Made by a program: the position numbers and the translations under genes. The notes under the pieces are model-generated. The model did not search any database. It saw only the letters and a list, made by a program, of their open reading frames with translations, and was not told where the DNA came from. Positions 14,943 to 33,597 of a DNA stretch of 64,000 nt are shown piece after piece; position 1 is the stretch's first letter, and each line of letters starts with the position of its first letter. Location: NCBI RefSeq assembly GCF_030296015.1, contig NZ_AP027368.1, positions 2,170,001 to 2,234,000 of the forward strand, given 5' to 3'. The stretch is from Ferrimonas sp. YFM (lineage in GTDB: Bacteria > Pseudomonadota > Gammaproteobacteria > Enterobacterales > Shewanellaceae).

Positions 14943-14958
14943 TGCAGGATGAATGCCA
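14943..14958 (-). promoter_or_regulatory. Candidate sigma-54 promoter of the flanking GT2 gene
   Basis: On the minus strand the sequence TGGCATTCATCCTGCA has GG and GC 12 bp apart, as sigma-54 -24/-12 promoters require. It differs from TGGCAC-N5-TTGCA at the last base of the -24 hexamer and the first base of the -12 element. Predicted start of transcription is about 25 nt before ATG 14907. Confidence 0.5.
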
Positions 14959-15043
14959 GTGCACGTAACCTTATGAACTAAAACAGTAAAAATCCTGTTT
15001 TCCCGTCGGGTTGTCGCGAATCTGCCTTTGGCCGGCAAGGGTT

Positions 15044-15056
15044 TTGCAGAATGCAA
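15044..15056. promoter_or_regulatory. LuxO/SypG-type enhancer box
   Basis: A perfect TTGCA-GAA-TGCAA palindrome, the known LuxO-binding consensus (TTGCA-WWW-TGCAA). It is 64 bp upstream of the weak -24 element before the sypJ-like gene and 98 bp from the -24 element of the divergent GT2 gene. It is a likely binding site for the LuxO-like activator encoded at 29678-31105. Confidence 0.7.
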
Positions 15057-15107
15057 AGATACCGGAGTCGTCCGGATAAACATCTTTTAAAACAATGATA
15101 TAAAAAT

Positions 15108-15123
15108 TGGCCCGCTTCTTGTT
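15108..15123 (+). promoter_or_regulatory. Weak sigma-54 promoter candidate for the sypJ-P operon
   Basis: TGGCCC-GCTTC-TTGTT: the -24 GG is intact, but the -12 GC is GT. On sequence alone this is a weak match. It is listed because its distance to the LuxO-type box (64 bp) is almost the same as in the two stronger promoters of this locus (65 bp each), and it precedes the first gene of the operon by about 40 bp. Confidence 0.45.
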
Positions 15124-15161
15124 TGTGTCAGGCTACTGTCCACACACTTTCGGAGCGGACC

Positions 15162-16307
15162 ATGAAGAGCATCGCCTACGTCATTCCCAGTTTTCCTGTG
15201 TTGTCCGAGACCTTCGTGGTCAACGAGATGACCGCCATGGCCGAGCTGGGGCACAAAATACTGCCCATCGCCCTGGAGACCCGCCCCGAGGTGGATAACG
15301 AGCTCCATCGCCACTGGGTGCGGCATATGGTGACTCCCTGGAACGTCAGCAAGCTGTCTCTGGCTAAGATGCTGATGCGGGCGCCATTCAACCCGGAGCT
15401 GTGGCGCTTTCTGGCCAGCCAGAGTGGCTTCAGTGCCCGCGGTTTGCTGCTGCTTGGCGTCAGGATCGCGGTTCAGGCCAAAGGGTGCGACCACATTCAC
15501 GCTCACTTCGCCCAGCACAGCGCCGCCGCCGCCATTGTGGCCGCACGTTTGCTGGGCATTACCGTCTCCTTTGTTGGCCATGGTGCGGACGTTTATCGGG
15601 CGCCGGCGGATCTGGAGCTGAAACTGCGCCACAGCGATCTGTCCATCGCCGTGTGCCGTGAGATGAGAGAGATGTTCTCCCCCCACTGCAAGGGGATCAC
15701 CGCCCTGGTGCCTTGCGGCATCGACACCAACAAGTTCAGCCGCCAGGCACCCTCTGAAGGGGACAAACGCCTGTTGTTTGTAGGGCGTTTGGTGGAGAAA
15801 AAGGGGCTGGATACCCTGCTGATGGCGATGGCGCTGTTGGGGGATCCTGAACTGGAGCTGGATATCGTTGGCGATGGCCCCTTGAAACAGCAGTGGCAAA
15901 CCCTGGCCAAGGCCATGGGGCTCACCGGTGTTCGGTTTCTCGGCGCCCGGCCCCAGAGCTGGCTGGCCAGTGAAGGCAGCCACTATCTGGCCATGGTGGC
16001 CCCATACCGGGTGGCCAAAGATGGGGACCGCGATACCGGTCCGCTGATCTGTAAAGAGGCGATGGCCATGGGCCTGCCGGTCATCGCGTCCAGCCTGATG
16101 GGGCTGAAGGAACTGGTGTCATCCCGCACCGGCTTTCGTGTGCGCCCGGACGATCCTCAGTCCCTCAAGCGGGCGATCCGCGCGCTGTTGGCCATGCCGG
16201 AGGCAGAGAGACAAAAGCTGGGACTGAAGGGGCGTGAACGGGTACGCCGTCACTACGAGCTGAAGCTTCAGGCACGTCGGCTCTCCTCCCTGGTGGAGGC
16301 GCTGTGA
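15162..16307 (+). CDS. Group 1 glycosyltransferase, SypJ-like
   Basis: A 381-residue GT4/GT-B glycosyltransferase. The N-terminal half begins SIAYVIPSFPVLSETFVVNEM, the C-terminal half has LLFVGRLVEKKGLDTLL near 198-214 and the donor-binding E-x7-E region KEAMAMGLPVIAS near 299-311. ATG 15162 follows CGGAGCGGACC. It is the first gene of a tightly packed operon in which every later gene overlaps or abuts the previous one. Position just before the flippase matches sypJ of V. fischeri. It adds a sugar to the lipid-linked repeat unit at the cytoplasmic face of the inner membrane. Confidence 0.88.
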   Translation: MKSIAYVIPSFPVLSETFVVNEMTAMAELGHKILPIALETRPEVDNELHRHWVRHMVTPWNVSKLSLAKMLMRAPFNPELWRFLASQSGFSARGLLLLGVRIAVQAKGCDHIHAHFAQHSAAAAIVAARLLGITVSFVGHGADVYRAPADLELKLRHSDLSIAVCREMREMFSPHCKGITALVPCGIDTNKFSRQAPSEGDKRLLFVGRLVEKKGLDTLLMAMALLGDPELELDIVGDGPLKQQWQTLAKAMGLTGVRFLGARPQSWLASEGSHYLAMVAPYRVAKDGDRDTGPLICKEAMAMGLPVIASSLMGLKELVSSRTGFRVRPDDPQSLKRAIRALLAMPEAERQKLGLKGRERVRRHYELKLQARRLSSLVEAL

Positions 16308-17656
16308 TGTTGGGACGCACCTTTGGCCACTATGCCATCGCCGGCATCAGCCAGAAGGCCGTCGGCCTGATCCTGATTCCGGTGACAGCGCATTTTCTCG
16401 GTGCCCAGGGCTATGGTCAGTTGGCCCTGCTGGTGGCGGTGGCCAATCTGGGCAGCATAGTGGCGGCGCTGGGCCTGCCTGAGTATATGCAGCGTTACGC
16501 CTATCGCCGCGCCAAGTGTCTTCAGGCTGCCGTCCTGGGTGTCCGCTGGGCCGCTGTCCTGCTGCTGTTCTCGCCGCTCCTGGCCTGGAGCCTGGCGTCG
16601 CTGTTGCCCGGCGATCTTCACTGGAGCTGGCTGCAGTGGCTGATGGTCAACCTATCCCTGGGCTCCCTGATGGGTCTGCGCCTGGTGCTGCTCAGAGTGG
16701 CCCATCGCTCTGGCCGTTATCTGGGGCTGGTTGCGCTCCATTCGGCCTGTCATCTGAGCTTTACCCTGGTGGCCTTGATGGCAGACCTGGGCGCGGGCGG
16801 CATGATGGCCGCCGGCGCCATCGCCACCATAGTGGCCCTGACTCTGGAGGCGGGGCGATTCTGGATGAAGCTGGTCCTGCGCCCTTTGACCCGGGTTAAG
16901 TCTGTTCTGGTGTACAGCCTGCCATTGACGCTGTCTCTGGCGGCGACCTTTTCGATGAATGGCTATGAGCGCCCCTGGCTGTCTCAGGCGCTGTCCCTGG
17001 AGCAACTGGGGGCTTACACCCTGGTGGCCCAGTTGTGCTTGTTGCCGGCCTATGTGATGGAGCCCTTTATGCTGTGGTGGGGCCCCAAGCGCCATGTCCT
17101 GGCCAGCCGCGCCCGTTTTGATGAGATTGCTCGTTGGGTGACCCTGGCCGCCATCGGTCTGGCGTTGGCGATCGCCCTGGCAGCCCTGACCCTGCCCGTT
17201 ATGGTGACCGCTATGTTTGATGCGGCCTTCCATCCGGCGCTGACCTTCTTGCCGGGATTGCTGGCGGCGACACTGTTCCGGCAGCTGGCTGCGATGATGA
17301 ACCTGGGGTTGTATCACCGGCAAACCGGTAACCTGCCGCTTGTGCTGAATCTGGTGCTGGTGTTGCCGGCCCTGATTCTGATCCCTCTGGTCATCCAGTC
17401 CTGGGGTGCCCAGGGCCTGGTTTGGCTACTGGTGGGGTTGATGGCAGTCAAGTTTGTCCTGTCCCTGGTGGTGAGCCAGTACCTGCTGCCGCTTCCCTAC
17501 GACTATCCGGTGTTGCTGGCGGTGTTGCTGACACTGATGCTTGGGCTGTTTGTCTCACCCCTGTGGCTGATTGTTGCGACCCTGATGAGCCTGACCGCTC
17601 TGATCAGACACTCTCGCAAGCAGGCTGGCGGCGCAGTGCTGGAGGGGGCCAAATGA
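16307..17656 (+). CDS. Polysaccharide flippase (Wzx/MOP family), SypK-like
   Basis: A 449-residue integral membrane protein with about twelve to fourteen hydrophobic segments. It starts GRTFGHYAIAGISQKAVGLILIP, the amphipathic entry typical of Wzx and RfbX transporters (TFxxYxxxxxxxxxxG). It would flip undecaprenyl-PP-linked repeat units across the inner membrane. ATG 16307 overlaps the stop of the preceding glycosyltransferase (TGATG), and its own stop overlaps the next start (ATGA), so expression is coupled. Gene order glycosyltransferase-flippase-polymerase matches sypJ-K-L. Confidence 0.87.
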   Translation: MLGRTFGHYAIAGISQKAVGLILIPVTAHFLGAQGYGQLALLVAVANLGSIVAALGLPEYMQRYAYRRAKCLQAAVLGVRWAAVLLLFSPLLAWSLASLLPGDLHWSWLQWLMVNLSLGSLMGLRLVLLRVAHRSGRYLGLVALHSACHLSFTLVALMADLGAGGMMAAGAIATIVALTLEAGRFWMKLVLRPLTRVKSVLVYSLPLTLSLAATFSMNGYERPWLSQALSLEQLGAYTLVAQLCLLPAYVMEPFMLWWGPKRHVLASRARFDEIARWVTLAAIGLALAIALAALTLPVMVTAMFDAAFHPALTFLPGLLAATLFRQLAAMMNLGLYHRQTGNLPLVLNLVLVLPALILIPLVIQSWGAQGLVWLLVGLMAVKFVLSLVVSQYLLPLPYDYPVLLAVLLTLMLGLFVSPLWLIVATLMSLTALIRHSRKQAGGAVLEGAK

Positions 17657-19008
17657 ACCGATTGCCGTTGGCCATTGCCTGTGCATTGCCCCTCTCCCTG
17701 TTGGCGGCAGCAGAGCCGCTTGTGCTGGCTTTGGGCTGGGCTGCCGCCTTCGGCATGCTGCTGATGGCGCGCCTTCCCATTGTGTTGTGTCTGGCCTTCG
17801 TCCTGTTCTCCACCTTCCGACTTCACGAGCTGGATCCTCGCCTGCTGTCACTGAGATTGCCCCAGTTACTGGCCATGGCGTCCCTGGCGGTGCTGCTGTG
17901 GCAACTGGTGGTGGTGAAATCGGCCAGGACCACCCTGTACCGAGAAGGCTGGCTGCTCCTCGGTCTGTTCGGCGTCACCACGGTGGGCATGGTGTTGGCC
18001 ACCAACTCCGGACTGGCCTTCGGTTATTGGAGTGGCAACTGGATCAAGGTGGTGATCATGTGTCTGGCCATCTCCTGGCTGCTGAAGGATCGCAGTCAGA
18101 TGGCCTTGGCCGGTTGGCTGATCATCCTGTCCGGCGCCCTGGTGGCCGCGGTTGCCCTGTACAACAGCGCCAATGGCCTGCAGGTGGTTGAGGGGACCCG
18201 GGTCACCATAGGTCGCAGCTGGGGCTCCATGCTGGGGGATCCCAATGATCTGGCGTTGGTGTTGCTGCTGCCGGTGAGCTTTGCCCTCAATCGCGCCCTG
18301 ACGCCGCTGCCGGGCAGGGCGGTGGCGATGGTTGTCCTGGTTGCCCTGATCCTGGCGCTGCTGGCGACCCAAAGCCGAGGCGGATTGCTGGGGCTGTGCG
18401 CCATCAGCGGCTGCAGTGTGCTGCTGCGCTATCGCTTGCCCAAATGGGTGTGGCTGCTGGCGCCCGTCGCCTTGTTGCTGCTGATGAGCCTGGCGGGGAT
18501 CAACGAGCGCCAGAGCGGTGGTGCGGCCGAGAGCGGCATCGACGAGTCCGCCATGGGCCGGCTGTACGCCTGGCAGGCGGCGATCTCCATGGGGTTGTCT
18601 CACCCTCTGTTCGGGGTGGGGCTGGACAACTTCTACTCCAATTACTTTTTCCACTCGCCTCACTGGGATGGCCGCAATCATGCGGTGCACAGCAGCTGGT
18701 TTCAGGTATTGGCCGAAGCAGGCGTTCTCGGGCTGTTGCTGTTTGTCGGCTTTGTGGCGGGGTTGATACAGCGCGCCCGCCGTCTGCGCCGGTTACTGGC
18801 AGAGGGCGGGGATGCGGATGCGCTCAGTTGGGCATCCGCTCTCTACTCCGGCCTGATTGGTTTTGCGGTCAGTGCCACCTTCCTGACCCAGGCCTTCACC
18901 TGGCCTCTGTACGTCATGGCGTCCCTGGTCTGGGCCGGTTGGCGAATCTATTTGAGTGTTCCTGAACTGTCAAAAGGGGAAAACCATGTTTCTTACTCCT
19001 GCGCTTAA
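17653..19008 (+). CDS. O-antigen ligase/polymerase-like protein (Wzy/WaaL family), SypL-like
   Basis: A 451-residue polytopic membrane protein with about ten hydrophobic segments and a large periplasmic loop after the WAAIS-type helix. The loop holds GVGLDNF and HAVHSSWFQVLAEAG near 318-360, the W-x-Q/H-N-x-x-L-x-x-x-x-E-x-G signature shared by Wzy polymerases and WaaL ligases. ATG 17653 overlaps the flippase stop. In the syp cluster SypL holds this place. I cannot tell polymerase from ligase by sequence alone; a single such gene in the operon favours polymerase. Confidence 0.83.
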   Translation: MNRLPLAIACALPLSLLAAAEPLVLALGWAAAFGMLLMARLPIVLCLAFVLFSTFRLHELDPRLLSLRLPQLLAMASLAVLLWQLVVVKSARTTLYREGWLLLGLFGVTTVGMVLATNSGLAFGYWSGNWIKVVIMCLAISWLLKDRSQMALAGWLIILSGALVAAVALYNSANGLQVVEGTRVTIGRSWGSMLGDPNDLALVLLLPVSFALNRALTPLPGRAVAMVVLVALILALLATQSRGGLLGLCAISGCSVLLRYRLPKWVWLLAPVALLLLMSLAGINERQSGGAAESGIDESAMGRLYAWQAAISMGLSHPLFGVGLDNFYSNYFFHSPHWDGRNHAVHSSWFQVLAEAGVLGLLLFVGFVAGLIQRARRLRRLLAEGGDADALSWASALYSGLIGFAVSATFLTQAFTWPLYVMASLVWAGWRIYLSVPELSKGENHVSYSCA

Positions 19009-19654
19009 ACAGAAACTGCGGCCCTGGTACCTCAGGGCCCGTGGCCTGCAGATGCCGCCGGTGGCGGTGATCTACCGCCCCCTGAGCTGGCTGCTGACCT
19101 CACTGAAGACGGTGTGTAGCGAAATGGGGCGCATCATGCTCTGGACCCCCATATTCCGAAGCCAGATTCAGGGTGGCGATGGCGTTTACCTCTACTCCGG
19201 AGTGCCACAGATACTGGGCCCGGTGCAGGTGAGCCTGGGTAAGGGGTGTCGTGTTAGCGGCATCTCCACCCTGTGCGGCCGGCCAGGGTCCACCCTCAAC
19301 GTGGGAGACAATGTGGACATCGGTTGGCAGAACACCATCGCCTGCGGCACCCATGTGGTGTTGGGCGACAACGTCCGCCTGGCACCCAGGGTGCTGCTTG
19401 CTGGCTACCCCGGGCACCCTTTGGATCCCCAGGCCCGGGCTGCCGGTGAGCCGGAACGCCCGGAGCAGGCTCGGGCGATCATCCTGGAGCGGGACGTCTG
19501 GCTGGGTACCGGGTCCATGGTGATGGCCGGTGTGACCATAGGCGCAGGCACCGTGGTGGCGGCGGGTTCAGTGGTCACCCGAGACCTGCCTCCTGGGGTG
19601 TTGGCCGGGGGCAATCCTGCCCGAGTGATTCGTCGTTTGGAGGAGAGATCATGA
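18986..19654 (+). CDS. Left-handed beta-helix acyltransferase (SypM-like)
   Basis: A 222-residue hexapeptide-repeat acetyltransferase. Imperfect hexad turns run from about residue 60 to 205, ending TIGAGTVVAAGSVVTRDLPPGVLAGGNPARVIRRLEE, the usual closing cap. The likely catalytic histidine lies in AGYPGHPLDP near 135-144. It probably O-acetylates a sugar of the exopolysaccharide using acetyl-CoA. ATG 18986 has AAGGGGAA upstream and overlaps the polymerase gene by 23 bp; the next gene starts on its stop codon. Position corresponds to sypM. Confidence 0.85.
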   Translation: MFLTPALKQKLRPWYLRARGLQMPPVAVIYRPLSWLLTSLKTVCSEMGRIMLWTPIFRSQIQGGDGVYLYSGVPQILGPVQVSLGKGCRVSGISTLCGRPGSTLNVGDNVDIGWQNTIACGTHVVLGDNVRLAPRVLLAGYPGHPLDPQARAAGEPERPEQARAIILERDVWLGTGSMVMAGVTIGAGTVVAAGSVVTRDLPPGVLAGGNPARVIRRLEERS

Positions 19655-20736
19655 AACCAAAGATGCTGATATTCGGTGAAGACTGGGGCCGTCATCCCTC
19701 CAGCAGCCAGCACCTGGCGCTGGCCATCCTGGATGAGGTGGAGATCACCTGGGTGAACTCCATCGGTCTGCGACAGCCGGGATGGCGCGACCTTGGCCGG
19801 TTGTTGAGCAAAGGGGTGGCCATCGGTGCCTCCAAAGGTCAGAAAGCGCCCTTTACCGTCGTTGCGCCAAAGCTGTGGCCCATGGCCAGCCAACCCTGGG
19901 TGCGGTCACTGAACCGCGCCATGCTCAGGTCCCAATTAGCTGAACACGGCCCCTTTGATTACGTTTGGTGCGCTCTGCCCAGCGCCGTGGAGTATCTGGA
20001 TCTCTTTCCCCAGAGTCAGGTGATCTACTACTGTGGCGACGATTTCAACGCCCTGTCCGGGGTCGACCATCAAAAAGTTGCGCCCCTGGAGCTGCGCTTA
20101 CTGGAGAAGGCGCACCTAGTGTGCTGCGCGTCTGAATCGCTGCGACAGAAACTGGGCCTGGAGACCAGCCATCTGTTGCCCCATGGCGTGGATCTGACTC
20201 AGTTCTCGCGGCCCCAGGAGCGACCGGCCGATCTGCCTCCGGGTCCGGTTCTTGGTTTTTACGGGGCGTTGGCGCCCTGGCTGGACTACGACCTGCTGGC
20301 CCAGCTGGCGGACCTGATGCCAGAGTGCAACCTGGTGCTCATCGGCCCCAACCTGGCGTGTCCGACGACCCTGCTGCAAAGAAGTAACGTCCACTGGCTG
20401 GGCCCCAGGCCCCACGCCAGTCTGGCGGCCTATGCCCAACACTTCGATGTCGCCCTGCTGCCGTTCAGGGATTGCCCCCAGATCCAGGCCTGTAACCCAC
20501 TCAAGATGAGAGAGTACCTGGCCGCCGGGTGCAGCGTGGTATCCACCCGCTTCGAGGCCGCCCAGGACCAGGCCGGTGTCGATGTCACCGAAGACACAGA
20601 GCAGTTCTTGGCTCAGGTGTTGCTGCGGCTGTTAAGTCCGGCGTCCCGGGTAGAACAGCGCATGTCGGTGGTCGGTCAGGGGTGGCAAGAGCGTGGCAAT
20701 GAGCTTTTGCGACTGTTGCAGTTTGCAAGCGCCTAG
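19651..20736 (+). CDS. Glycosyltransferase, GT-B fold, SypN-like
   Basis: A 361-residue protein with the architecture of a GT-B glycosyltransferase: an N-terminal half ending in VIYYCGDDFNALSG near 126-139, and a C-terminal half with VLGFYGALAPWLDYDLL near 198-214 and CNPLKMREYLAAGCSVVSTRF near 276-296, the donor-site E-x-L-A-A-G-x-P/S-V-V-S motif. It overlaps the acetyltransferase stop by 4 bp. The 3' end of the coding sequence contains a LuxO-type box at 20716-20728. Position matches sypN. Confidence 0.83.
   Translation: MKPKMLIFGEDWGRHPSSSQHLALAILDEVEITWVNSIGLRQPGWRDLGRLLSKGVAIGASKGQKAPFTVVAPKLWPMASQPWVRSLNRAMLRSQLAEHGPFDYVWCALPSAVEYLDLFPQSQVIYYCGDDFNALSGVDHQKVAPLELRLLEKAHLVCCASESLRQKLGLETSHLLPHGVDLTQFSRPQERPADLPPGPVLGFYGALAPWLDYDLLAQLADLMPECNLVLIGPNLACPTTLLQRSNVHWLGPRPHASLAAYAQHFDVALLPFRDCPQIQACNPLKMREYLAAGCSVVSTRFEAAQDQAGVDVTEDTEQFLAQVLLRLLSPASRVEQRMSVVGQGWQERGNELLRLLQFASA
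20716..20728. promoter_or_regulatory. LuxO/SypG-type enhancer box inside the 3' end of the sypN-like gene
   Basis: A perfect TTGCA-GTT-TGCAA match to the LuxO consensus, 65 bp upstream of the sigma-54 promoter at 20781. It overlaps the last codons of the sypN-like gene. Confidence 0.7.
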
Positions 20737-20780
20737 AGGTGCATCAAGGTAAATTATTGAAATAATTAGACAATAAATAA

Positions 20781-20796
20781 TGGCACGAGGTGTGCA
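20781..20796 (+). promoter_or_regulatory. Sigma-54 promoter before the lipoprotein and sypO-R genes
   Basis: TGGCAC-GAGGT-GTGCA: perfect -24 hexamer, -12 element one base from TTGCA, GG and GC 12 bp apart. The predicted transcript starts about 23 nt before ATG 20830. This fits V. fischeri, where SypG drives several internal promoters of the cluster. Confidence 0.75.
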
Positions 20797-20829
20797 CTTG
20801 ATTGGTATCAAGCCCAGTGGGAGAGACCG

Positions 20830-21195
20830 ATGAAGTGGATACCTTTAATGCTGTTGTTGCTCCTCGGCGGGTGTGCCTCCACCTCCTCAGACCAAGAGCA
20901 ATCTCAGCAGTCCAATGCGCCCATGGTCACCTTGACCTGGCCCGAGGATGGTCGCGTGCTGCTGTGGCTGCAGGGACAACTGCCGTCGGATCTGTTTCGG
21001 AGCCAGAAGATGACCGTGGAACTCGGTCCTCTGCCTGAGGCGCCGGCCTGGTACTCCGCCTTCGTGGCCGAGCAAAGGCTGGCAGAGCTGGAGAATGCTC
21101 TGAGATCCATGGGCTACCAGGGCAGGGTGGAGGGCAGTTATCTGCCCTCGGCGACGCCGGATCAGGTCCGGTTGGGAGCCGCCTATGCCTATTGA
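20830..21195 (+). CDS. Small lipoprotein of unknown function in the polysaccharide operon
   Basis: A 121-residue protein with a lipoprotein signal: hydrophobic LMLLLLLGGC, with the lipobox cysteine at residue 17. The mature part is short, acidic and without cysteine or transmembrane segments. It ends by overlapping the Wzz-like gene by 11 bp, which couples the two. I do not recognise the family. By position it may assist the chain-length regulator or the export complex at the outer membrane. It has its own sigma-54 promoter directly upstream. I recall no equivalent in the V. fischeri syp cluster. Confidence 0.75.
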   Translation: MKWIPLMLLLLLGGCASTSSDQEQSQQSNAPMVTLTWPEDGRVLLWLQGQLPSDLFRSQKMTVELGPLPEAPAWYSAFVAEQRLAELENALRSMGYQGRVEGSYLPSATPDQVRLGAAYAY

Positions 21196-22627
21196 ACAGG
21201 CACTGGTGTTTGCCTATCGCCTGCTGTGCCAGTTGTGGCAAAAGCGCTATCTGGTGGTGATTCCCGCTGTGGTGACCGGTCTGGTGCTGGCTCTGCATGC
21301 GTTTTCGGGAAAGGCCAAGTATCAGAGCCAGACCTCACTGCTGCTCCAGGAGTCGGCGCTCTCCAACCCCTTCCTGAAAGATTTGTCGGTGTCGGTCCGC
21401 CTCAAGGAGCGCCTCGATGGCCTGCGGGCCCTGTTGCACAGCCGCTATGTCATGGCTGAAGTGGCCGGCGCCGCCGGACTGACGTCGGACGATATGGCGG
21501 AAGGGCAGAAGGAGGCGGTCTACCGCAGGCTGGCAGGCGCCACCCACCTGCACCTCAGTGGCGACTCTCTGGTCACCATCGGACTGTTGTGGGACACCCC
21601 GGAGCAGGCCCGGCATCTGCTGACCCTGATCAGTGCCAGCTTTCAACAGCGGCTGATGGACCCGGGTCAGCGGGCCGTAGACAACTCCGAACGCTTCCTC
21701 TCTGAGCAGCTTGCGCTTCAGGAGACCAGCCTGGCGGATGTGGAGGGGGAGCTGGCCCGCTTCAAGCAGGAGCACGCCAATCTGCTGCCCAACCTGTTGG
21801 GGGCCAATAACATGGCGCTGCTGGAGGCGGAAGCGCAAATCCGCAGCAAGCTGGTTGAACTGGAGGGGGCACGCGCCCAACTCGTTCAGCTCAAGGGCCA
21901 GTTGAAGATGGCCAACCCCATAGTCAGTGAGATCGAGAAACAGATTGTCTCAACCCGGGCACAACTGGCGCTGCTCAAAAGTCGCTACACAGACCGCCAC
22001 TCCCAGGTGAAAGGGGTCAAGGCTAGGCTGGCCCAGTTGCAGCAAGAGAAACAGCGTCTGTTGCAGGAGACGGCTGCTGAGGAGGACCGCCATCTTGAGG
22101 AGCTGTGGCAACTGGCGACCACCTTTAAGCCGGAGGAGGGCGACAGTCAGGCGCCTCTGCTGGTGTCCCAGCTGCAGTCACTGCAGGAGTCCAGCAACCT
22201 GGTGGTGACCCTGGAGGGGGAGCTGAAGGTTCTGGAAGCCCACAAGGCCTCCATTCTGGAGCGTATGGGCCGCAGTGCCGAAGTGGAGCAGCAGTTGGCT
22301 GAGCTCGAGCGCCTGGCCGAGGGCAAACGATCTCTCTACAGCGAGCTGTTGGAGCGATACGAGAAAGCCCGTGTCACAGGCCAGCTGGGACGTTTTGAGG
22401 CTCCAGAGAAGGTCAGGGTCATCGACAGGCCAAATTTGCCTTCAGGCGCCATTGGGGCGCCCTGGTGGCTGATGGGTGTGCTGGGCCTCTTCGGCGGAGC
22501 CGGCCTGGGCGTCGCCCTGGCGGTGCTGGGGCTGTTGCTGGACAGAAAAATCTATCGTCAGGAGCAAATCGAACGCCTGAGCGGCGCACCGGTGCTCGCC
22601 GAATACACTATCGAGGGAGAAGGCTGA
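21185..22627 (+). CDS. Polysaccharide co-polymerase / chain-length determinant (Wzz-GumC type), SypO-like
   Basis: A 480-residue protein with an N-terminal transmembrane helix near 18-38, a long periplasmic part with coiled-coil helices around 165-300 and 330-400, and a second transmembrane helix near 423-450 preceded by VRVIDRPNLPSGAIGAPWW, the P-x-x-P-x-x-P-rich Wzz signature. There is no C-terminal kinase domain or tyrosine cluster, so it is a PCP-2a-like protein without kinase; a separate small ATPase-like protein is encoded at 28919. It sets chain length or couples polymerisation with export. It overlaps both neighbours. Confidence 0.87.
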   Translation: MPIEQALVFAYRLLCQLWQKRYLVVIPAVVTGLVLALHAFSGKAKYQSQTSLLLQESALSNPFLKDLSVSVRLKERLDGLRALLHSRYVMAEVAGAAGLTSDDMAEGQKEAVYRRLAGATHLHLSGDSLVTIGLLWDTPEQARHLLTLISASFQQRLMDPGQRAVDNSERFLSEQLALQETSLADVEGELARFKQEHANLLPNLLGANNMALLEAEAQIRSKLVELEGARAQLVQLKGQLKMANPIVSEIEKQIVSTRAQLALLKSRYTDRHSQVKGVKARLAQLQQEKQRLLQETAAEEDRHLEELWQLATTFKPEEGDSQAPLLVSQLQSLQESSNLVVTLEGELKVLEAHKASILERMGRSAEVEQQLAELERLAEGKRSLYSELLERYEKARVTGQLGRFEAPEKVRVIDRPNLPSGAIGAPWWLMGVLGLFGGAGLGVALAVLGLLLDRKIYRQEQIERLSGAPVLAEYTIEGEG

Positions 22628-25460: not shown

Positions 25461-25465
25461 CACCC

Positions 25466-25501
25466 GGCCGGTATCGGGCATCAACAGTCCCGGTACCGGC
25501 C
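25466..25501. terminator. Strong hairpin closing the sypJ-R operon
   Basis: A 13-bp stem with one G-T pair (GGCCGGTATCGGG / CCCGGTACCGGCC) around a 10-nt loop, starting 5 bp after the stop codon. There is no downstream T-run, so it may act as a weak terminator or mRNA 3' stabiliser, not a classic rho-independent site. Confidence 0.6.
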
Positions 25502-25555
25502 AAAAATCCCAGGCTTAGGCGCGTCTGCGCTTCCTTCCATTTTGCAAATCGACCA

Positions 25556-25568
25556 TTGCAAAACGCAT
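25556..25568. promoter_or_regulatory. Partial LuxO/SypG-type box before sypA
   Basis: TTGCA-AAA-CGCAT: one perfect half-site and a 3-of-5 second half. It lies exactly 65 bp upstream of the sigma-54 promoter at 25621, the same distance as at 20716/20781. A further TTTTGCAA half-site starts at 25540, so two adjacent weak sites may work together. Confidence 0.5.
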
Positions 25569-25620
25569 TCTCTCTCTGACAAGTGCCATTAAGTTATTGT
25601 ATTTATTGGGTTTGTTTTGT

Positions 25621-25636
25621 TGGCACTCTCTTTGCT
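25621..25636 (+). promoter_or_regulatory. Sigma-54 promoter of the sypA-D operon
   Basis: TGGCAC-TCTCT-TTGCT matches the -24/-12 consensus (TGGCAC-N5-TTGCW) at every conserved base. The predicted start lies about 43 nt upstream of ATG 25691. SypG-type activators drive sypA from such a promoter in V. fischeri. Confidence 0.85.
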
Positions 25637-25690
25637 CAAGGTTAAGGGTCGGAACTGTTCCGGCCCTTTACGAATATTGGGAGAGTGATC

Positions 25691-26011
25691 ATGGCTATTC
25701 AACTGGATCAGACATTGGCACCCACCAAGGTGGCTGCACCCCAGCAGTTCGATATCGACCACATAGGCCCCATCAAGGAGAGTTTTGAAGACCTGCTGAT
25801 GGACAGCGGCCAGTTGGTGGTGGTTGATCTGTCCCAGACCGATTTCATCGACTCCTCCGGCATCGGCGCCATCATCTATCTGTTCAAGCGCCTCAAGAGT
25901 CAACAACGTGTCCTTCAGCTTCAGGGCGTCCATGGCCAGCCCAAGCGCATCCTGACCATGCTCCGGGTCGACAGGGCCATCCCCTTTGTTGGCGGAGAGG
26001 TGGCGGCATGA
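25691..26011 (+). CDS. sypA: STAS-domain regulator, SypA-like
   Basis: A 106-residue single-domain STAS protein (anti-sigma-factor antagonist fold). The phosphorylation loop reads TDFIDSSGIGAII, with serines at 55 and 56; Ser56 is the residue controlled by SypE kinase/phosphatase in V. fischeri SypA. ATG 25691 follows GGGAGAG. It overlaps the next gene by 4 bp and sits behind the best sigma-54 promoter of the window. In V. fischeri unphosphorylated SypA is needed for biofilm formation. No SypE-like kinase/phosphatase is present in this window. Confidence 0.88.
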   Translation: MAIQLDQTLAPTKVAAPQQFDIDHIGPIKESFEDLLMDSGQLVVVDLSQTDFIDSSGIGAIIYLFKRLKSQQRVLQLQGVHGQPKRILTMLRVDRAIPFVGGEVAA

Positions 26012-26835
26012 GAGCATTGTTAGCCGTTGTCATGCTCAGTGGTTGTGCCCAGTGGCCCGAAGAGGGCCAGGGGGGCATGGCGGATGAGAAGACCCCCTGG
26101 GAAAGTTACTTGAATACACCGGCTTTCCAGCAAGAGCAGCAACAGTTGCGTCAGCGCACAGTGGAGGCGCAGATGGGGCTGGATCTGTTGCGATTGCGCG
26201 GCTCTATGGCTTGCCTGCCCGCCCGCCAGATGCAAGCCGAGCTGTTATTGGCCCGGGTCCGGGGGGAACTGGCGGAAGGGCTGTTTGCCGATGCGTCGGA
26301 AAACATGCTGATCCTAGAGGACCAGGTTCACCGCCTGGGTGTTCGCCTTAACTATGTCACCGCCAAGCTGGGGTGCAGCGCGACTTATCGCACGTCGGGC
26401 TCCGACACTGCTGGCGGCCAGGGTGATGCGGACAAGGTGATGGGTTTGCTCCATTCCGAGCAGTTTGCCGACGACCGCTCGGAACTGCTGCCGGAGTTTC
26501 GTCAGAGGTTGGCACGTCTGGCCACCGAGATGAAGGCCCATCCTCACTGGCACCTGAAGATTGCGGGTCATGCGGACCAGAGGGGCAGTGAGCAGTACAA
26601 CCTGGCACTGGCCGGCCGGCGTGCTCAGTCTGTAGCCACCTATCTGCAAGAGCATGGCGTCAGCCCAACCCAGATCTCCGTTGAGGCCAAAGGCGAATCG
26701 CAGCCTGTGGGTGATAACAGCACCCGCACCGGTCGCCTGGCAAACCGGCGGGTCACCCTGCAACTGCTGCAAGGGGAATCGCAGTCCTCACAGGTGGCGC
26801 TGCGCCACTGGGATGATGAGTCGAGGAGAGAGTGA
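26008..26835 (+). CDS. sypB: OmpA-family lipoprotein, SypB-like
   Basis: A 275-residue protein with a short lipoprotein signal (hydrophobic LLAVVMLSGC, cysteine at residue 13), a helical middle part, and a C-terminal OmpA/Pal peptidoglycan-binding domain from about 145 to 260. The domain shows IAGHADQRGSEQYNLALAGR near 189-208 and the closing NRRVTL. It would anchor the export apparatus to peptidoglycan and the outer membrane. It is translationally coupled to the STAS gene before it and to the export gene after it, exactly the sypA-B-C arrangement. Confidence 0.87.
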   Translation: MRALLAVVMLSGCAQWPEEGQGGMADEKTPWESYLNTPAFQQEQQQLRQRTVEAQMGLDLLRLRGSMACLPARQMQAELLLARVRGELAEGLFADASENMLILEDQVHRLGVRLNYVTAKLGCSATYRTSGSDTAGGQGDADKVMGLLHSEQFADDRSELLPEFRQRLARLATEMKAHPHWHLKIAGHADQRGSEQYNLALAGRRAQSVATYLQEHGVSPTQISVEAKGESQPVGDNSTRTGRLANRRVTLQLLQGESQSSQVALRHWDDESRRE

Positions 26836-28922
26836 TGAGATACCTCTGTCTGCTTGTGATGATGCTGGTGTTCTTTCCTGTTCAGGCCGAAGAGGAGCGG
26901 CGCCTGAAGCCCGGCGACAGCCTGATGGTCCTGCTGCCTGGTGAGCCTGACTTCGACCAGCCGTTTCAGCTGGACAACCAGGGAAAGATCCGGCTGCCGG
27001 AAGCGGGCAGGGTGGCGCTGCGCGGCAAAACCCTGGAGCAGGCAAAGGTGACCATCAAACTGGCCCTGTCCAGTGTCTACCTCAACCTGGACCAGTTTGA
27101 TCTTGAGCTCGAAGCCCCTCAACTGCTGATTCGGGTGCTGGGTTATGTGGATGCACCGGGGGAGGTGCTGCTGCCCGCCGACGGCAATGTGCAGATGGCC
27201 ATCGAAGCCGCCGGGGGCCTGCGTCCCGGTGCCCAGCTGGACCGCCTCCAGGTTCAGCGAGGTGACGAGATCATCCCCTTCGATTACAAGGCGTACCTGG
27301 ACAGCGGTAACGACCGTCTGCTGCCCCCACTGAAAAGTGAGGATCGTCTGTTTGTGCCGGCCTCTCCGTTGACTGGAAACGTTGAAGTGAATTTTGATGC
27401 CCGGTCATTGATCGCCGGTGGGGATGGGGCGGGTAAGCGCGAGGCCATTACCCTGTTTGGCGAGGTGCGTAATCCCGGCACCTTCTCCATCAAGGGGGAG
27501 ATGACCCTGGTGGATGCGCTGATGCGGGCGGAAGGGGTGACCCGCTATGGCGACGTCAGCCACATCCGGGTGATCACCGAAAACGTTCCCTACCTGTTCG
27601 ATCTGAAAAGTTATCTGGACGAAGGGGAGTCCAAAACCCTGCCGCCGGTGGGGCCTGGTACCCTGGTGTATGTGCCCATTCAGGTGGACGTGGTGTCCAA
27701 CACCCAGAGGACGGTGTATGTGATGGGTGAGGTTCAGCAGCCGGGCGCCTATGAGACCGGCGATCAGGTGACCTTCCTGGATCTGCTGGCCAATGCCGGG
27801 GGCCCGACCCGCTTCGCCGAAACCCGTAACATCCGCCTGCTGCGCCAGAACCAGAGTGTGGTGGAGGTGGATCTGCTCTCTTACACCGAAAGCCGTCAGA
27901 GTGCGCCTCTGCCCGCCATCGAGCCCGGTGACGTCATCTTCGTGCCAGAGAAAACCGACGTTAACGAAAAATCCTGGCTGAAGATCCCCTCGGATCGGGC
28001 GATCAAGATCGTCGGCGCCATGAACAAACCCGGCCGCTATGAGTGGGACGACGCCATGTCCTTCCTGGACCTGTTTGCCCATGCGGAGGGGCCCAAACAA
28101 CACGCCAACCTGGCGGAGATTGAAATCCTCAAGGAGAGTGGCGACAAGTACGTGTTCGACCTGGACAAGTTCATCAAGCAGGGGGGCAGCTATGCCGCGC
28201 TGCCGGACCTGGAAGCGGGGGACACCGTCATCGTCAACGAACTGCCTTGGGATCCCACGGACAACAAGTCTTCCTGGATTCGACAAGGGCCGGAAAGTTC
28301 CATCTATGTGTTCGGTCAGGTGGAGTCCCCCGGTCGTTACGCCTTTACCTCGCAGCTGAGCTTCCTGGACATCCTGGCCGCGGCGGATGGCCCCACAGAT
28401 GAGGCGGATCTGGGGCAGATACGCATCACCCACAGAGATGGCAGCCAGGCCAGGGTGACTCAGCTGAATCTCGCCCGCTATTTCGAAACCGGTGATGAGA
28501 GTGTGCTGCCCAAGGTGTTGCCTGGGGACACCATCTTCCTGCCCCAGAGAGACAGGCAGTGGCTGGAGAAACCCGCAGAGCAGGTGGTGCGCCTGATGGG
28601 GGCGGTGAACAAACCGGGCCGCTACAGTTTCGACGACACCATGAACCTGCTGGATCTGCTGGCTGAAGCCGGTGGCCCTAAGGAGAACGCCTACATCGAA
28701 AAGATCATCGTGGTTCAGCACAGCTGTTGTGAGCCTCAGGCCAGGGTGTTTGATCTCAAGGAGTTTGTCCTTCGGCCTAACTATGCGCAGATCCCTGTGC
28801 TGCGCCCCGGAGATACCGTGTACGTTCCGGATGAGGAGCAGTCCAACTGGCACGTCTTTATCAATGGCGTTCGTGATGCCCTGAGCATCGTTGCCCTGGT
28901 TGCCCTGGGAGGTGCCATATGA
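26832..28922 (+). CDS. sypC: Polysaccharide export protein with six SLBB repeats, SypC-like
   Basis: A 696-residue periplasmic/outer-membrane protein with a cleavable signal peptide (FFPVQAEE, cut near residue 19). An N-terminal poly-export domain (LKPGDSLMVLLPG near 25-37) follows, then six SLBB repeats, each opening with hydrophobic-x-G-x-x-x-x-P-G: LGYVDAPG, FGEVRNPG, MGEVQQPG, VGAMNKPG, FGQVESPG and MGAVNKPG. It ends in a hydrophobic stretch. Wza has two or three SLBB-type domains, so this one is unusually long. There is no lipobox cysteine. It would form the secretion channel for the polysaccharide; position and neighbours match sypC. Confidence 0.88.
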   Translation: MMRYLCLLVMMLVFFPVQAEEERRLKPGDSLMVLLPGEPDFDQPFQLDNQGKIRLPEAGRVALRGKTLEQAKVTIKLALSSVYLNLDQFDLELEAPQLLIRVLGYVDAPGEVLLPADGNVQMAIEAAGGLRPGAQLDRLQVQRGDEIIPFDYKAYLDSGNDRLLPPLKSEDRLFVPASPLTGNVEVNFDARSLIAGGDGAGKREAITLFGEVRNPGTFSIKGEMTLVDALMRAEGVTRYGDVSHIRVITENVPYLFDLKSYLDEGESKTLPPVGPGTLVYVPIQVDVVSNTQRTVYVMGEVQQPGAYETGDQVTFLDLLANAGGPTRFAETRNIRLLRQNQSVVEVDLLSYTESRQSAPLPAIEPGDVIFVPEKTDVNEKSWLKIPSDRAIKIVGAMNKPGRYEWDDAMSFLDLFAHAEGPKQHANLAEIEILKESGDKYVFDLDKFIKQGGSYAALPDLEAGDTVIVNELPWDPTDNKSSWIRQGPESSIYVFGQVESPGRYAFTSQLSFLDILAAADGPTDEADLGQIRITHRDGSQARVTQLNLARYFETGDESVLPKVLPGDTIFLPQRDRQWLEKPAEQVVRLMGAVNKPGRYSFDDTMNLLDLLAEAGGPKENAYIEKIIVVQHSCCEPQARVFDLKEFVLRPNYAQIPVLRPGDTVYVPDEEQSNWHVFINGVRDALSIVALVALGGAI

Positions 28923-29563
28923 CCCTGAGACAGGATCCCTTCAGCGGCCTGACCACCCTGGTTCAGAGCAAGGGGGTGGCCAGTCTGGCCATCGCCGATC
29001 TTGGCGGAGGCAGTGCTGCCTGGGTCAGTCAGGCCCTGGCCCAGAGGCTTCAATCCCTCGGCGATGCCACCCTGATGCTGGAGTTGGCGGAACAATCGCA
29101 TGCAAGCTGGAGTCTGGACGACATCAGCGCTCATACGGCCATCAGCAATCAGGGTGGCCTGGCCTACCTGGGGGCGCCTGAGCAGCATAGGCCCCTTCAG
29201 TTGAACAGCCTGGTGCAGGCTTTGCTCAGGTGGCAACAGGAGTTTTGCACCGTAGTGGTCCATGCCGGATCGGCACTTGAGGAGAGGGGCATCTTGGCCA
29301 TCTCTGGCTGTCAGGGTGTATTGCTGGTGGTGGATGGCGGGCGCGACGATGAAGAGAAGCTTGAACGCCTCAAGGTTCGCCTGAAGCATCAGGGGGTAAT
29401 GCTGATGGGGGTGGTACACAATCGCAGCGCACTGCCGACTCTGGGCCGGGAACTGGCCGCATCCCTGACACGACGTCTTGGCTGGTTGTCCCGCCACAAC
29501 TGGTTTGAACGCCTGCAGGGCTGGCTGCAGCAGAACCGTTTTCTCAATGGCCATTGGAGCTAA
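28919..29563 (+). CDS. CpsD/Wzc-like P-loop protein lacking the Walker A motif, SypD position
   Basis: A 214-residue protein shaped like the cytoplasmic ATPase half of bacterial tyrosine kinases. The Walker A place (residues 26-36) reads ADLGGGSAAWV, without the lysine and serine/threonine of GxxGxGKS/T. A Walker A' strand-like LMLELAEQ and a hydrophobic strand with VVVHAGSA are still recognisable, as is a VLLVVDGG strand near 144. No C-terminal tyrosine cluster is present; the end is basic and tryptophan-rich. It is probably catalytically dead, and a structural partner of the Wzz-like protein at 21185. It overlaps the export gene by 4 bp. It could also be a distant ParA-like protein. Confidence 0.65.
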   Translation: MTLRQDPFSGLTTLVQSKGVASLAIADLGGGSAAWVSQALAQRLQSLGDATLMLELAEQSHASWSLDDISAHTAISNQGGLAYLGAPEQHRPLQLNSLVQALLRWQQEFCTVVVHAGSALEERGILAISGCQGVLLVVDGGRDDEEKLERLKVRLKHQGVMLMGVVHNRSALPTLGRELAASLTRRLGWLSRHNWFERLQGWLQQNRFLNGHWS

Positions 29564-29677
29564 GCCACTGTCCAGGGTGGTTTATATAAATTAATCAACT
29601 TTTTTAGTCACTTCCTAGCAATTGCGCCCGCTAGTCACCTACAATTTTATCTGTAGAGGCATAGAGGGAGCTTTGCC

Positions 29678-31105
29678 ATGGCGCAGTCGCAACATCGCGT
29701 ACTACTGATTGAAGACACCGAGTCGCTAGCTCGGGTGTATCAAGCCTATCTGAAAGAGAGCAGTGTCTCGGTGGAACATGTGACCACCTTTGCCCAGGCC
29801 AAAGAGAGCCTGGTCAGGCAACTGCCCTCCTTGGTTCTTCTGGACCTTCACCTTCCGGATCAGGATGGCATCGAGCTGCTGAGGATGCTGCACAACAGCG
29901 GCTGCACCGTGCCGGTTATTGTGATCACCGCCAACAGCTCTGTGGAAACCGCCGTGGAGGCGATGCGCCTCGGCGCCTACGATTTCGTCACCAAACCGGT
30001 GGAGGCCAGGCGCCTTCAGGTCACGGTTCACAACGCCCTGAACTACTACGCGCTCAACCGCCTCGTTGATCAGCTCGAAAACCGTCAGGCCAGAGCCAGT
30101 TTCCATCAGTTTGTCGGGGCCAGCACTTCGATGCAGGCGGTCTACCAGATGATTGAGCGCAGTGCCCGTAGCCGGGCGACGGTCTTTGTCCTGGGAGAAA
30201 GTGGCACGGGTAAGGAGTTGTGCGCCGAGGCGCTGCATCAGGAGTCGGCCCGCAAGGAGAACCCCTTTATTCCGCTGAATTGTGCGGCCATCCCCAAGGA
30301 GCTGGTGGAGAGTGAACTCTTTGGCCATGTGAAGGGGGCCTTTACCGGTGCTCAGAAGGAGCGGCAGGGGGCGGTGATGGCCGCCAACGGTGGTACCCTT
30401 TTCCTGGATGAGATCTGCGAGATGGAGCTGGATCTGCAGGCCAAGCTGCTGCGCTTCCTGCAAACCTCAACCATTCAGCCCGTTGGCAGTGACGAGCGAA
30501 TCAAAGTGGACGTTCGCATCGTCTGCGCCAGCAACCGCGATCCCTGGAAAGAGGTAGAGGAGGGGCGTTTCCGTGAAGATCTCTATTACCGCTTGCATGT
30601 CCTGCCCATCCATCTGCCTCCCCTGAGGCAGAGGGGAGACGACATCCTTCTGTTGGCAAAGCGCTTTTTACAGGCCTATGGCGCCGAGGAGGGCAAACGC
30701 TTCGTCGGATTCAGCCGCCAGGCCGAGTGGATCATGAGCAAGTTTGGCTGGCCAGGGAATGTTCGTCAGCTGCAGAACCTGATGCGTCAACTGGCGGTGA
30801 TTCACCCCGGGGGCAAGGTGGCCAGTGAAGATCTTCCGCCGCCGCTGAACAAGGTGGCCTGTGACGAGGGCTCAGAAGGCGCCGCCCAGTTTCAGTGGGC
30901 CCGCCCGCCACAGCAGGCGGCCGTTAAGGAGAGGGCAGAGGCGACCGTGGCGGTGCCCGAGCCTCAGTCTTTGGCCGACATCGAAAGGCAGGCCATTGAG
31001 GAGGCCATCGAACGGTGCAATGGCAATATCACCCAGGCGGCCAACCTGTTGGAGGTGAGCCCCTCCACCATCTATCGCAAGATGCAGGTGTGGCAACAGG
31101 CTTAG
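29678..31105 (+). CDS. sypG: Sigma-54-dependent response regulator, SypG/LuxO-like
   Basis: A 475-residue NtrC-class activator. Receiver domain at 1-125 with phospho-acceptor D56 (LLDLHLPD) and the acidic pair E12-D13; AAA+ domain at about 145-380 with Walker A GESGTGKE at 173-180 and the sigma-54 contact loop GAFTGA at 220-225; Fis-type helix-turn-helix at about 430-475. Sequence is closest to LuxO and SypG (AEALHQES, CEMELDLQAKLLRFLQT, DPWKEVEEGRFREDLYYRLHVLP). It is the obvious activator for the five -24/-12 promoters of this locus and for the TTGCA-N3-TGCAA boxes. It is 114 bp after the sypD-like gene and converges with a glycosyltransferase gene. Confidence 0.92.
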   Translation: MAQSQHRVLLIEDTESLARVYQAYLKESSVSVEHVTTFAQAKESLVRQLPSLVLLDLHLPDQDGIELLRMLHNSGCTVPVIVITANSSVETAVEAMRLGAYDFVTKPVEARRLQVTVHNALNYYALNRLVDQLENRQARASFHQFVGASTSMQAVYQMIERSARSRATVFVLGESGTGKELCAEALHQESARKENPFIPLNCAAIPKELVESELFGHVKGAFTGAQKERQGAVMAANGGTLFLDEICEMELDLQAKLLRFLQTSTIQPVGSDERIKVDVRIVCASNRDPWKEVEEGRFREDLYYRLHVLPIHLPPLRQRGDDILLLAKRFLQAYGAEEGKRFVGFSRQAEWIMSKFGWPGNVRQLQNLMRQLAVIHPGGKVASEDLPPPLNKVACDEGSEGAAQFQWARPPQQAAVKERAEATVAVPEPQSLADIERQAIEEAIERCNGNITQAANLLEVSPSTIYRKMQVWQQA

Positions 31106-31107
31106 GG

Positions 31108-32157
31108 TTAACCCTGCAGGTCTGCCCTGGCCTCCCTGTCAGGGTCGTCTGCATCTCGAGAACACTGACCGTAGAGTGACAGGCACAGGGCGAGGCTGTC
31201 GTCGCCACTCCAGTGGTGAATGATGCGCTCTTTGGCCTTGGCACTCAATTCGGCTAACCGATGAGCAGGATGGCTTGCCATCTGAATCACTGCCTGTGTC
31301 ATGGCGTCCATGTTACCGGACTCGACCAGAGTACCTACCTGGTTATCCACCAATTGCGACAGGTCACCCACGTCGAAGGCGATAACAGGAACGCCACAGG
31401 CCATGGCCTCCAGCGCCACCATGGGCAGGCCTTCGTATCTGGATGTCAGGATGAGGGCGTCCAGTTCCGGCAGGCGGCGGGGCATATCAGCGACCTGACC
31501 ATGATGCACTATGGCGCTGCCTTTGATGAGACTGACCATCTCGCCATCTCCGAAACTGTGCCAACGGTACTGAGGCAGTGCTCGGGAAAGCGCGACAAAA
31601 CGGTCGAAGCCCTTGTCCGCGCACAGGCGACCGACGAAACCCAGGGTAAAGGGGCGCCCGAAACGGCTTTTGCAAACCGTTGGCCGGCTGACCCAGTTAC
31701 GAATCAACCGGCAATCGCCGCCGACTCTGTGCTGAATGGCCCGGGACACGGCCAGATTCAGGCTCAGGGAGGAGCTTTGCAGGTCGGCCCAAAGGTACAG
31801 GGCCAGTTTACCCTTACCGGGGTCACCGTTATGAAAGGTGGTGACACAAGGGCGGCCGCTGCCCAGGGTGGCCATGCGGCACAATATGGATGCCTTGTAG
31901 CCGTGTGCGTGCAATACCCCTTGCTGATGGTGCCGTTTCAATTGGGACAGCTTATGGTGCCAGCGACCATTTAATTCAATAAAAGCAACTTTTTGCATCT
32001 TGAGTTGCAAAATGAAACTAGACTCTGGGTAAGATGAGATAAGGACCACTTCAACCTTACGACCCGACAGCTTCAACCTGTGGTAGAGCTGACAGACATG
32101 CGCCTCGATACCGCCGTAGTGACGGCCATCCAGGACCAGTTTGATGGTGGGAAGCAT
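31108..32157 (-). CDS. Group 1 glycosyltransferase at the right flank of the syp-like cluster
   Basis: A 349-residue GT4 enzyme. It opens IKLVLDGRHYGGIEAHVCQL, with HGYKASILCRM near 92-102, a C-terminal domain start FTLGFVGRLCADKGFDRFV near 190-208, and donor-site SRYEGLPMVALEAMACGVPVIAF near 258-280. ATG 32157 has AGGA about 9 bp upstream; the longer frame to 32346 runs through the intergenic region and is not credible. It is tail-to-tail with sypG (2 bp apart) and has its own sigma-54 element (32199-32214), suggesting it belongs to the same regulon, perhaps as the counterpart of SypH or SypI. Confidence 0.86.
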   Translation of the reverse strand: MLPTIKLVLDGRHYGGIEAHVCQLYHRLKLSGRKVEVVLISSYPESSFILQLKMQKVAFIELNGRWHHKLSQLKRHHQQGVLHAHGYKASILCRMATLGSGRPCVTTFHNGDPGKGKLALYLWADLQSSSLSLNLAVSRAIQHRVGGDCRLIRNWVSRPTVCKSRFGRPFTLGFVGRLCADKGFDRFVALSRALPQYRWHSFGDGEMVSLIKGSAIVHHGQVADMPRRLPELDALILTSRYEGLPMVALEAMACGVPVIAFDVGDLSQLVDNQVGTLVESGNMDAMTQAVIQMASHPAHRLAELSAKAKERIIHHWSGDDSLALCLSLYGQCSRDADDPDREARADLQG

Positions 32158-32198
32158 AGGCCATTGTCCTGCAGGAGAGGGATTGTGATTACAACTCT

Positions 32199-32214
32199 TG
32201 CATCGATAGTGCCA
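32199..32214 (-). promoter_or_regulatory. Sigma-54 promoter of the right-flank glycosyltransferase
   Basis: Read on the minus strand: TGGCAC-TATCG-ATGCA. The -24 hexamer is perfect, the -12 element one base off TTGCA, and GG-to-GC spacing is 12. The predicted start is about 30 nt before ATG 32157. I find no clear TTGCA-N3-TGCAA box about 65 bp upstream, where the other promoters have theirs. Confidence 0.62.
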
Positions 32215-32257
32215 GATTGCGTATTTGGAGCAGAATTTGCCTATACAAGGAGAGATG

Positions 32258-33569: not shown

Positions 33570-33597
33570 GCGCTGCGTTCGACGACAGGTCGAATCT

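Follow-up and report, generated by a model that had tools for sequence, protein, structure and literature searches.

LuxO-type boxes and predicted sigma-54 promoters at a syp/scv-type exopolysaccharide cluster of Ferrimonas sp. YFM, with a LuxO/SypG-class activator as their probable regulator

In the stretch of 64,000 bp analyzed from Ferrimonas sp. YFM (NZ_AP027368.1, positions 2,170,001 to 2,234,000; hereafter the window), polysaccharide genes form three plus-strand units followed by the gene of an activator of the LuxO/SypG class. Two outward-facing glycosyltransferase genes flank this set, and a gene for a LuxU-like histidine phosphotransfer (Hpt) protein and a yvcK-type gene lie to the right (Table 1). 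As in loci of the syp/scv type, described in PMC10804989 and PMC8941931, the set encodes a STAS protein, an OmpA-family protein and an SLBB polysaccharide exporter together with a sigma-54 response regulator. By this gene content, the cluster is a syp/scv-type exopolysaccharide locus, the polymer itself being a predicted product. We suggest that it is very probably driven by its own activator, acting through TTGCA-N3-TGCAA boxes upstream of sigma-54 (-24/-12) promoters.

Table 1. Genes, -24/-12 elements and boxes at the Ferrimonas sp. YFM locus (coordinates are those of the window).
Feature	Position	Strand	Remarks
Left outward-facing glycosyltransferase, GT2 type, start codon inferred	13993..14907	-	PF00535
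-24/-12 element TGGCATTCATCCTGCA	14943..14958	-	score 14.6, fourth in window; kept 7/7
Perfect box TTGCAGAATGCAA, common to the 14943- and 15108+ promoters	15044..15056	.	centre 92 and 58 bp away
Weak -24/-12 element TGGCCCGCTTCTTGTT, unit 1	15108..15123	+	score 11.2; element and box kept in relatives
Unit 1: glycosyltransferase, flippase-like, polymerase/ligase-like and acetyltransferase-like proteins, glycosyltransferase	15162..20736	+	several below NCBIfam cutoffs
Perfect box TTGCAGTTTGCAA	20716..20728	.	from genome-wide box and pair scans
-24/-12 element TGGCACGAGGTGTGCA, unit 2	20781..20796	+	score 16.2; own genome's one box-plus-element match
Unit 2: lipoprotein-like protein, chain-length-determinant-like protein, glycosyltransferase, GT2/sugar-phosphate transferase fusion	20830..25460	+	
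Upstream box TTCCATTTTGCAA, 1 mismatch	25535..25547	.	centre 80 bp from the 25621 element
Box TTGCAAAACGCAT, 2 mismatches	25556..25568	.	centre 59 bp from 25621; same place in F. futtsuensis (L037)
-24/-12 element TGGCACTCTCTTTGCT, unit 3	25621..25636	+	score 17.8, window's best
Unit 3: STAS protein (SypA-like), OmpA-family protein, SLBB polysaccharide exporter, 214-aa protein	25691..29563	+	214-aa protein has no family match
LuxO/SypG-class activator: receiver Asp56, AAA+ with GAFTGA at 220, Fis-type HTH, Gln144	29678..31105	+	
Right outward-facing glycosyltransferase, GT4 type, start codon inferred	31108..32160	-	PF13692
-24/-12 element TGGCACTATCGATGCA, no upstream box	32199..32214	-	score 15.0; kept 8/8 species
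LuxU-like Hpt protein, His54	32258..32602	+	PF01627; LuxU 1y6d; 7/8 species
YvcK-type gene	32575..33450	-	41% identical to yvcK beside luxO-luxU in G055

Both strands of the window were scanned with a sigma-54 matrix whose frequencies were set by us. The five -24/-12 elements proposed in an earlier note on this DNA were found in their places, with the TGG and GC of a sigma-54 promoter, correctly spaced and ahead of a gene. Four of them are strong and correspond to the top four matches of the window (25621+, 20781+, 32214- and 14958-, in descending order). The fifth, 15108+, is as weak as the note had described it, being only the 14th match, with GT instead of GC at -12. It would not pass by the scan alone, and is credible because relatives keep both box and element. 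Scores of at least 14 are reached by 4 sites in the 19.6-kb cluster, where 0.56 would be expected from the 2 such sites in 69,440 bp taken elsewhere in the genome. At a score of at least 11 the excess is smaller (12 sites against 4.5 expected). The pattern TGGCAY-N6-TGCW is matched 68 times in the genome against 13 for the reversed control, and 6 of these matches fall at 14-33 kb of the window, two of them (19380+ and 32873-) inside genes and probably due to chance.

Perfect TTGCA-N3-TGCAA boxes are rare, with 6 copies in the 4.66-Mb genome, 2 of them in this cluster, and none in the control; allowing up to one mismatch, there are 65 in the genome and 19 in the control. Measured from start to start, the 15044, 20716 and 25556 boxes precede their elements by 64, 65 and 65 bp, which corresponds to 58, 59 and 59 bp from the box centre to the T of TGG. 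This is the spacing given in the earlier note, and two of its three boxes are indeed perfect, but 25556 has 2 mismatches and the better box for the 25621 element is 25535 (1 mismatch), 21 bp further upstream. A pair pattern consisting of a perfect box, 37-67 bp and TGG-N9-TGC was searched in 14 genomes of the genus, together with a reversed-pattern control. Nine matches were found, 8 of them in this cluster (7 ahead of the lipoprotein gene and 1 ahead of unit 1 in G011) and the ninth outside it, on contig 12 of G006, with none for the control. Genome-wide co-occurrence of boxes and elements was the test proposed in the earlier note, with many equally good pairs elsewhere as its refutation, and the reading stands up to it. 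The single perfect pair of the YFM genome is 20716/20781.

The collinear cluster is present in 8 species, namely that of the window, G009 (F. futtsuensis), G008, G005, G011, G010, G002 and G007, giving 24 promoters for the 3 plus-strand units, whose starts were set by BLAST. For each promoter we took the best-scoring element up to 165 bp from the unit start, regardless of boxes. In 17 of the 24 promoters, the T of TGG lies 57-60 bp from the centre of a box with up to 2 mismatches, against a mean of 0.15 and a maximum of 2 in 1000 dinucleotide shuffles; this range was fixed after the distances had been seen and, since the species are related and orthologous promoters are not independent, the shuffles overstate independence. 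Within the window, where the automatic pick fell on a spurious element, 15033 instead of 15108, two of the three promoters have a box at this distance, a result matched in none of 5000 shuffles. Other distances also recur. In G011 and G010 the box of unit 1 lies at 47 bp, and five promoters have a second box at 80-81 bp, that is, about one turn less and two turns more than usual, while the best boxes for G002 unit 1 (101 bp) and unit 3 (73 bp) do not fit. A single constant spacing, as claimed in the earlier note, is not supported, given that distances of 47, 80 and 89-102 bp are also seen. For units 1 to 3 and for the left flank, the reading of a sigma-54 promoter with a putative LuxO-type enhancer is supported by the genome-wide pairs and by the comparison of species.

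Outside the cluster, one of the four remaining perfect boxes, at genome position 1414012, is followed by TGGCATGGAAATTTCT at the same 59 bp, a pairing expected about 0.003 times for four boxes by our own arithmetic, which applies the site rate of the 69,440 bp of outside DNA and takes the observed score as its cutoff. This element has a poor -12 and stands 52 bp ahead of the ATG of a gene whose product contains DUF6923, GEVED and LruC domains. The locus (L002:1501-1581; L223:6126-8192) is a candidate matrix-protein target. In V. fischeri, according to a section of PMC10804989, induction of the bmp and bal genes, which are outside syp, is lost without SypG; the literature offered nothing useful linking LruC with biofilm or bmpA with SypG. 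A one-mismatch box, TTGGAGTCTGCAA, has at least 7 copies in the YFM genome (40400, 229451, 238805, 291695, 416653, 708468 and 2931424), perhaps belonging to a multi-copy gene. In another genus of the same family (L051-L053 from G030, G022 and G014), several perfect boxes are found near a related activator, 67-91 bp upstream of sigma-54-like elements and on one strand.

The activator has the receiver, the AAA+ domain with GAFTGA and the HTH of group I sigma-54 enhancer-binding proteins, and the earlier note was right in assigning to the locus its own NtrC-class activator with an intact GAFTGA loop. Its best solved relative is LuxO 5ep0 (E 2.2e-133) and its best NCBIfam model is LuxO (NF041946), with 607.2 bits where the LuxO equivalog requires 800. 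A 95% identical activator is found in Ferrimonas futtsuensis (NZ_AUGL01000006.1). The recognition helix SPSTIYRK is common to the Ferrimonas activator and the LuxO and SypG rows, which is consistent with the predicted binding to LuxO-type boxes. In PMC10162802, LuxO is described as locked in an inactive state by a linker that contains a conserved glycine, and no activator other than SypG is said to be predicted to share it. The corresponding stretch, F/Y-x-G-F-I/V-G, is present in the Ferrimonas rows. The glycine position, assigned by our own alignment with the help of an Asn in a Vibrio SypG row (Asn being reported for V. splendidus in the same paper), is occupied by Gln144 in the window and in F. 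futtsuensis and by Gly in the other 6 species, and this Gln may relax a LuxO-type lock.

From 95 collected proteins, 86 were used in a quick tree and 50, excluding long branches and near copies, in a careful one. The Ferrimonas activators are outside both the LuxO and the SypG clades in the two trees. In the careful tree, support is 100/100 for the Ferrimonas clade and 94/94 for the SypG clade, but only 79/59 for the LuxO group, which the quick tree had given 99. Four activators from family f25 group with Ferrimonas in the careful tree (82/72). Approximately unbiased (AU) tests rejected neither a grouping of Ferrimonas with LuxO (p 0.30) nor one with SypG (p 0.21). We file the activator in the LuxO/SypG class, in what appears to be a lineage of its own, without assigning strict orthology to either LuxO or SypG. 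In alphaproteobacterial metagenome-assembled genomes (L080, L081, L083 and L084), activators 47-52% identical to that of the window were also observed. No sigma-54 promoter scoring at least 10.5 precedes the activator gene in any of the 8 species, and no sigma-70-type promoter was found before it on the plus strand, by a scan that finds fewer sites than shuffles do (2 against 4.4). The terminator scan equals shuffles. Since neither scan does better than shuffles, transcription of the activator by read-through from 25621 is only the likelier option.

Among the closest described systems is syp/SypG of Vibrio fischeri, together with scv/ScvE and rbd/RbdG of other vibrios. Shared with these are the consecutive genes for STAS, OmpA and SLBB-exporter proteins, a sigma-54 response regulator of LuxO type encoded inside the cluster, and sigma-54 promoters with activator sites ahead of several operons. 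Four operons are described for syp/scv-type clusters in PMC10804989, and a sigma-54 promoter and SypG sites are given for each of them. The activator proposed here would act on its cluster in the way that SypG acts on syp. The locus differs, however, in the place of its activator outside the SypG clade in both trees (although a grouping with SypG is not rejected), in the perfect LuxO-type boxes found instead of TTCTCANNNTGMDWN, the SypG-bound motif given in the excerpt of PMC10162802 on binding sites, and in the separate LuxU-like Hpt gene. No SypF-like kinase adjoins the activator and no full-length SypE-like protein is encoded in the window, where 115 bp separates the 214-aa gene from the activator, so the SypE and SypF pair of a syp/scv-type locus is lacking. 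A full-length SypE-like protein is present in 2 of the 8 species, G008 and G005. That of G008 (L038, reverse strand 4272-5789) has HATPase, receiver and SpoIIE phosphatase domains and is encoded just before the activator; its G005 counterpart is 77% identical to it.

The second comparison is with the LuxO-LuxU relay of Vibrionaceae. The Hpt protein is LuxU-like, as the earlier note had it, since LuxU 1y6d is its best solved relative (E 2.6e-10), although it does not reach the cutoff of its best NCBIfam model, LuxU NF041948 (53.5 bits against 140). In Vibrionaceae genomes, some of them called so by inference from Qrr, neighbors and tree, the gene order is uvrB-luxO-luxU-yvcK, while here it is activator, glycosyltransferase, Hpt and yvcK, with no uvrB found in the window. 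Common to both are the activator near an Hpt gene and yvcK, the linker region, the recognition helix and the box type (TTGCAWWWTGCAA, the LuxO-bound motif in the same excerpt of PMC10162802). The glycosyltransferase gene between activator and Hpt, the missing uvrB neighbor and the lack of a detectable Qrr RNA set the locus apart, as do the polysaccharide genes as putative direct targets.

This likeness raises the question of whether the activator is a plain LuxO quorum-sensing regulator with its main outputs elsewhere and the cluster as one of several targets. The Hpt and yvcK neighbors, the best family and best solved structure, the AU test that retains a grouping with LuxO and the perfect box at 1414012 with its element at 59 bp would all agree with it, and so would luxS, present in 14 of 14 genomes, although luxS alone is no evidence of signaling. 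On the other hand, no Qrr RNA was detected in the 14 Ferrimonas genomes, under stricter filters able to lose weak matches, the same under which 1 of 60 relatives (G055) yielded 4 copies. The LuxQ sensor domain is not found above cutoff in any of the 14 genomes; LuxQ was considered as the kinase and rejected, since 4 of the 14, including that of YFM, give only sub-threshold matches of 43-44 residues. The activator scores below the LuxO cutoff, and the perfect-box pairs are concentrated in this cluster. Moreover, the SLBB exporter occurs in 9 of the 14 genomes, the same 9 in which the best activator matches are of the LuxO/SypG class, and neither is found in the other 5. In G006, also a Ferrimonas genome, there is a SypG-type activator and cluster instead. 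We consider a plain LuxO regulator unlikely in view of these results, and favor direct control of the cluster by its own activator.

The flanking promoters were both drawn into the regulon by the earlier note, which can be upheld for the left one. All 7 species that have the left glycosyltransferase keep its element; the box lies at 89-92 bp in five of these species, at 102 bp in G011 and at 46 bp in G002. As this box also serves unit 1, one box probably serves two divergent promoters, which in the window would be the 15044 box between 14943- and 15108+. On the right, the predicted starts of the glycosyltransferase and Hpt genes are at about 32160 and about 32255-32258, respectively, so the element at 32199-32214 is intergenic. 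The promoter is probably sigma-54 dependent. However, its control by the local activator is not supported, for lack of an upstream box. A downstream enhancer was considered, as the glycosyltransferase gene of 7 of the 8 species contains a TTGCA-N3-TGCAA-like site (1-2 mismatches) at 196-247 bp, but we do not claim it, because the distance varies and the bases are F-x-L-Q codons in the window and in G007. In three of the 8 species (G008, G005 and G011; L038, L039 and L040), the gap between this glycosyltransferase and the Hpt gene contains a mirror-image sigma-54 promoter absent from the window, with -24/-12 elements on opposite strands sharing a TGCA -12 core and facing the two genes.

The 32199 element, kept in 8 of 8 species with no upstream box, could suggest that the elements are used by other sigma-54 activators of the genome, of which there are 11 matches at 1e-60 or better, and that the boxes are incidental. 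We regard this as quite improbable for the cluster as a whole, since most promoters pair a box with an element at a conserved distance, and since the activator encoded in the cluster has a recognition helix like that of LuxO. Some results do weigh against control by this activator through the boxes. The 15108 element is weak by itself, at rank 14 in the window, and the scores depend on a matrix that we set ourselves. There are 59 further one-mismatch boxes in the genome. Seven of the 24 promoters lack a box at 57-60 bp, and at G007 unit 2 and G011 unit 3 there is none with up to 2 mismatches at 30-130 bp; nor is there one within 330 bp upstream of the 32199 element in any of the 8 species. The shuffles ignore the kinship among these species. 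Finally, the Hpt gene was not found at the locus of G010, which has activator, boxes and cluster, and therefore the relay there needs another donor. That elements and boxes are mere chance matches in a long region is statistically very unlikely, to the point of being negligible, even with weak elements like 15108 being common (16 sites of at least 11 in the 69,440 bp of outside DNA), given the rarity of perfect boxes, the pair specificity and the excess over shuffles.

In the mechanism that we propose, a sensor kinase would pass phosphate to His54 of the LuxU-like Hpt protein and from there to Asp56 of the activator. Bound to boxes some 60 bp (in some cases 80 or 47 bp) upstream of -24, the activator would open sigma-54 RNA polymerase at the promoters 25621, 20781 and 15108; the common 15044 box would let it do the same at 14943.

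A possible input to this relay is seen in G007, in which a FIST-domain protein and a hybrid kinase (HisKA, HATPase and receiver, with no Hpt) are encoded just past yvcK. In G235, from another family, the activator, the Hpt protein, a FIST protein and a hybrid kinase without Hpt are encoded in a row (FIST and kinase loci L215:5331-8604 and L222:4419-7741). The arrangement resembles NosP-VpsS-LuxU of Vibrio cholerae, where NosP controls VpsS, which exchanges phosphate with LuxU, as stated in a passage of PMC6769237. It differs in that the FIST proteins match the NosP model weakly (43.6 and 56.8 bits, far below the cutoff of 450) and that the pair is absent from the window, the G007 FIST protein having no match there or in the examined stretches of the other 6 syntenic loci. 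By analogy, the FIST/hybrid-kinase pair could feed the relay in G007, and by extension a comparable input may exist in the species of the window. To the right of yvcK, the window also contains degenerate repeats (33541-34254) with a tRNA-Cys predicted by ARAGORN at their left end (33598-33671), and a set of response regulator, periplasmic-type protein and hybrid kinase genes (37612-42127), TorRTS-like by eye, of which the kinase region alone was compared, with a G007 kinase.

Systems of the syp/SypG kind are known, but we found no description of an arrangement like this one, where a relay encoded near yvcK would drive polysaccharide genes and no Qrr was detected; the name Ferrimonas does not occur in the portion of the main text of the scv survey that was available. 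As a more tentative suggestion, which we hold to be possible but doubtful, the locus might keep the ancestral state of LuxO and SypG, a LuxU-LuxO phosphorelay fed by a FIST/hybrid-kinase pair and directly driving polysaccharide genes. If so, the Qrr branch (LuxO) and the syp regulator (SypG) would be later specializations of one biofilm switch. SypG is reportedly able to act on the qrr1 promoter in V. fischeri, and the Ferrimonas wiring would fit such an action. The 24 related promoters also offer a natural series for enhancer distance and helical phase in sigma-54 activation. It appears that a biofilm-type polysaccharide cluster of this marine bacterium is turned on directly by a LuxO relative, apparently wired straight to the structural genes in a genus where no Qrr was found. 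This bears on the origin of both LuxO in quorum sensing and SypG in biofilm control.

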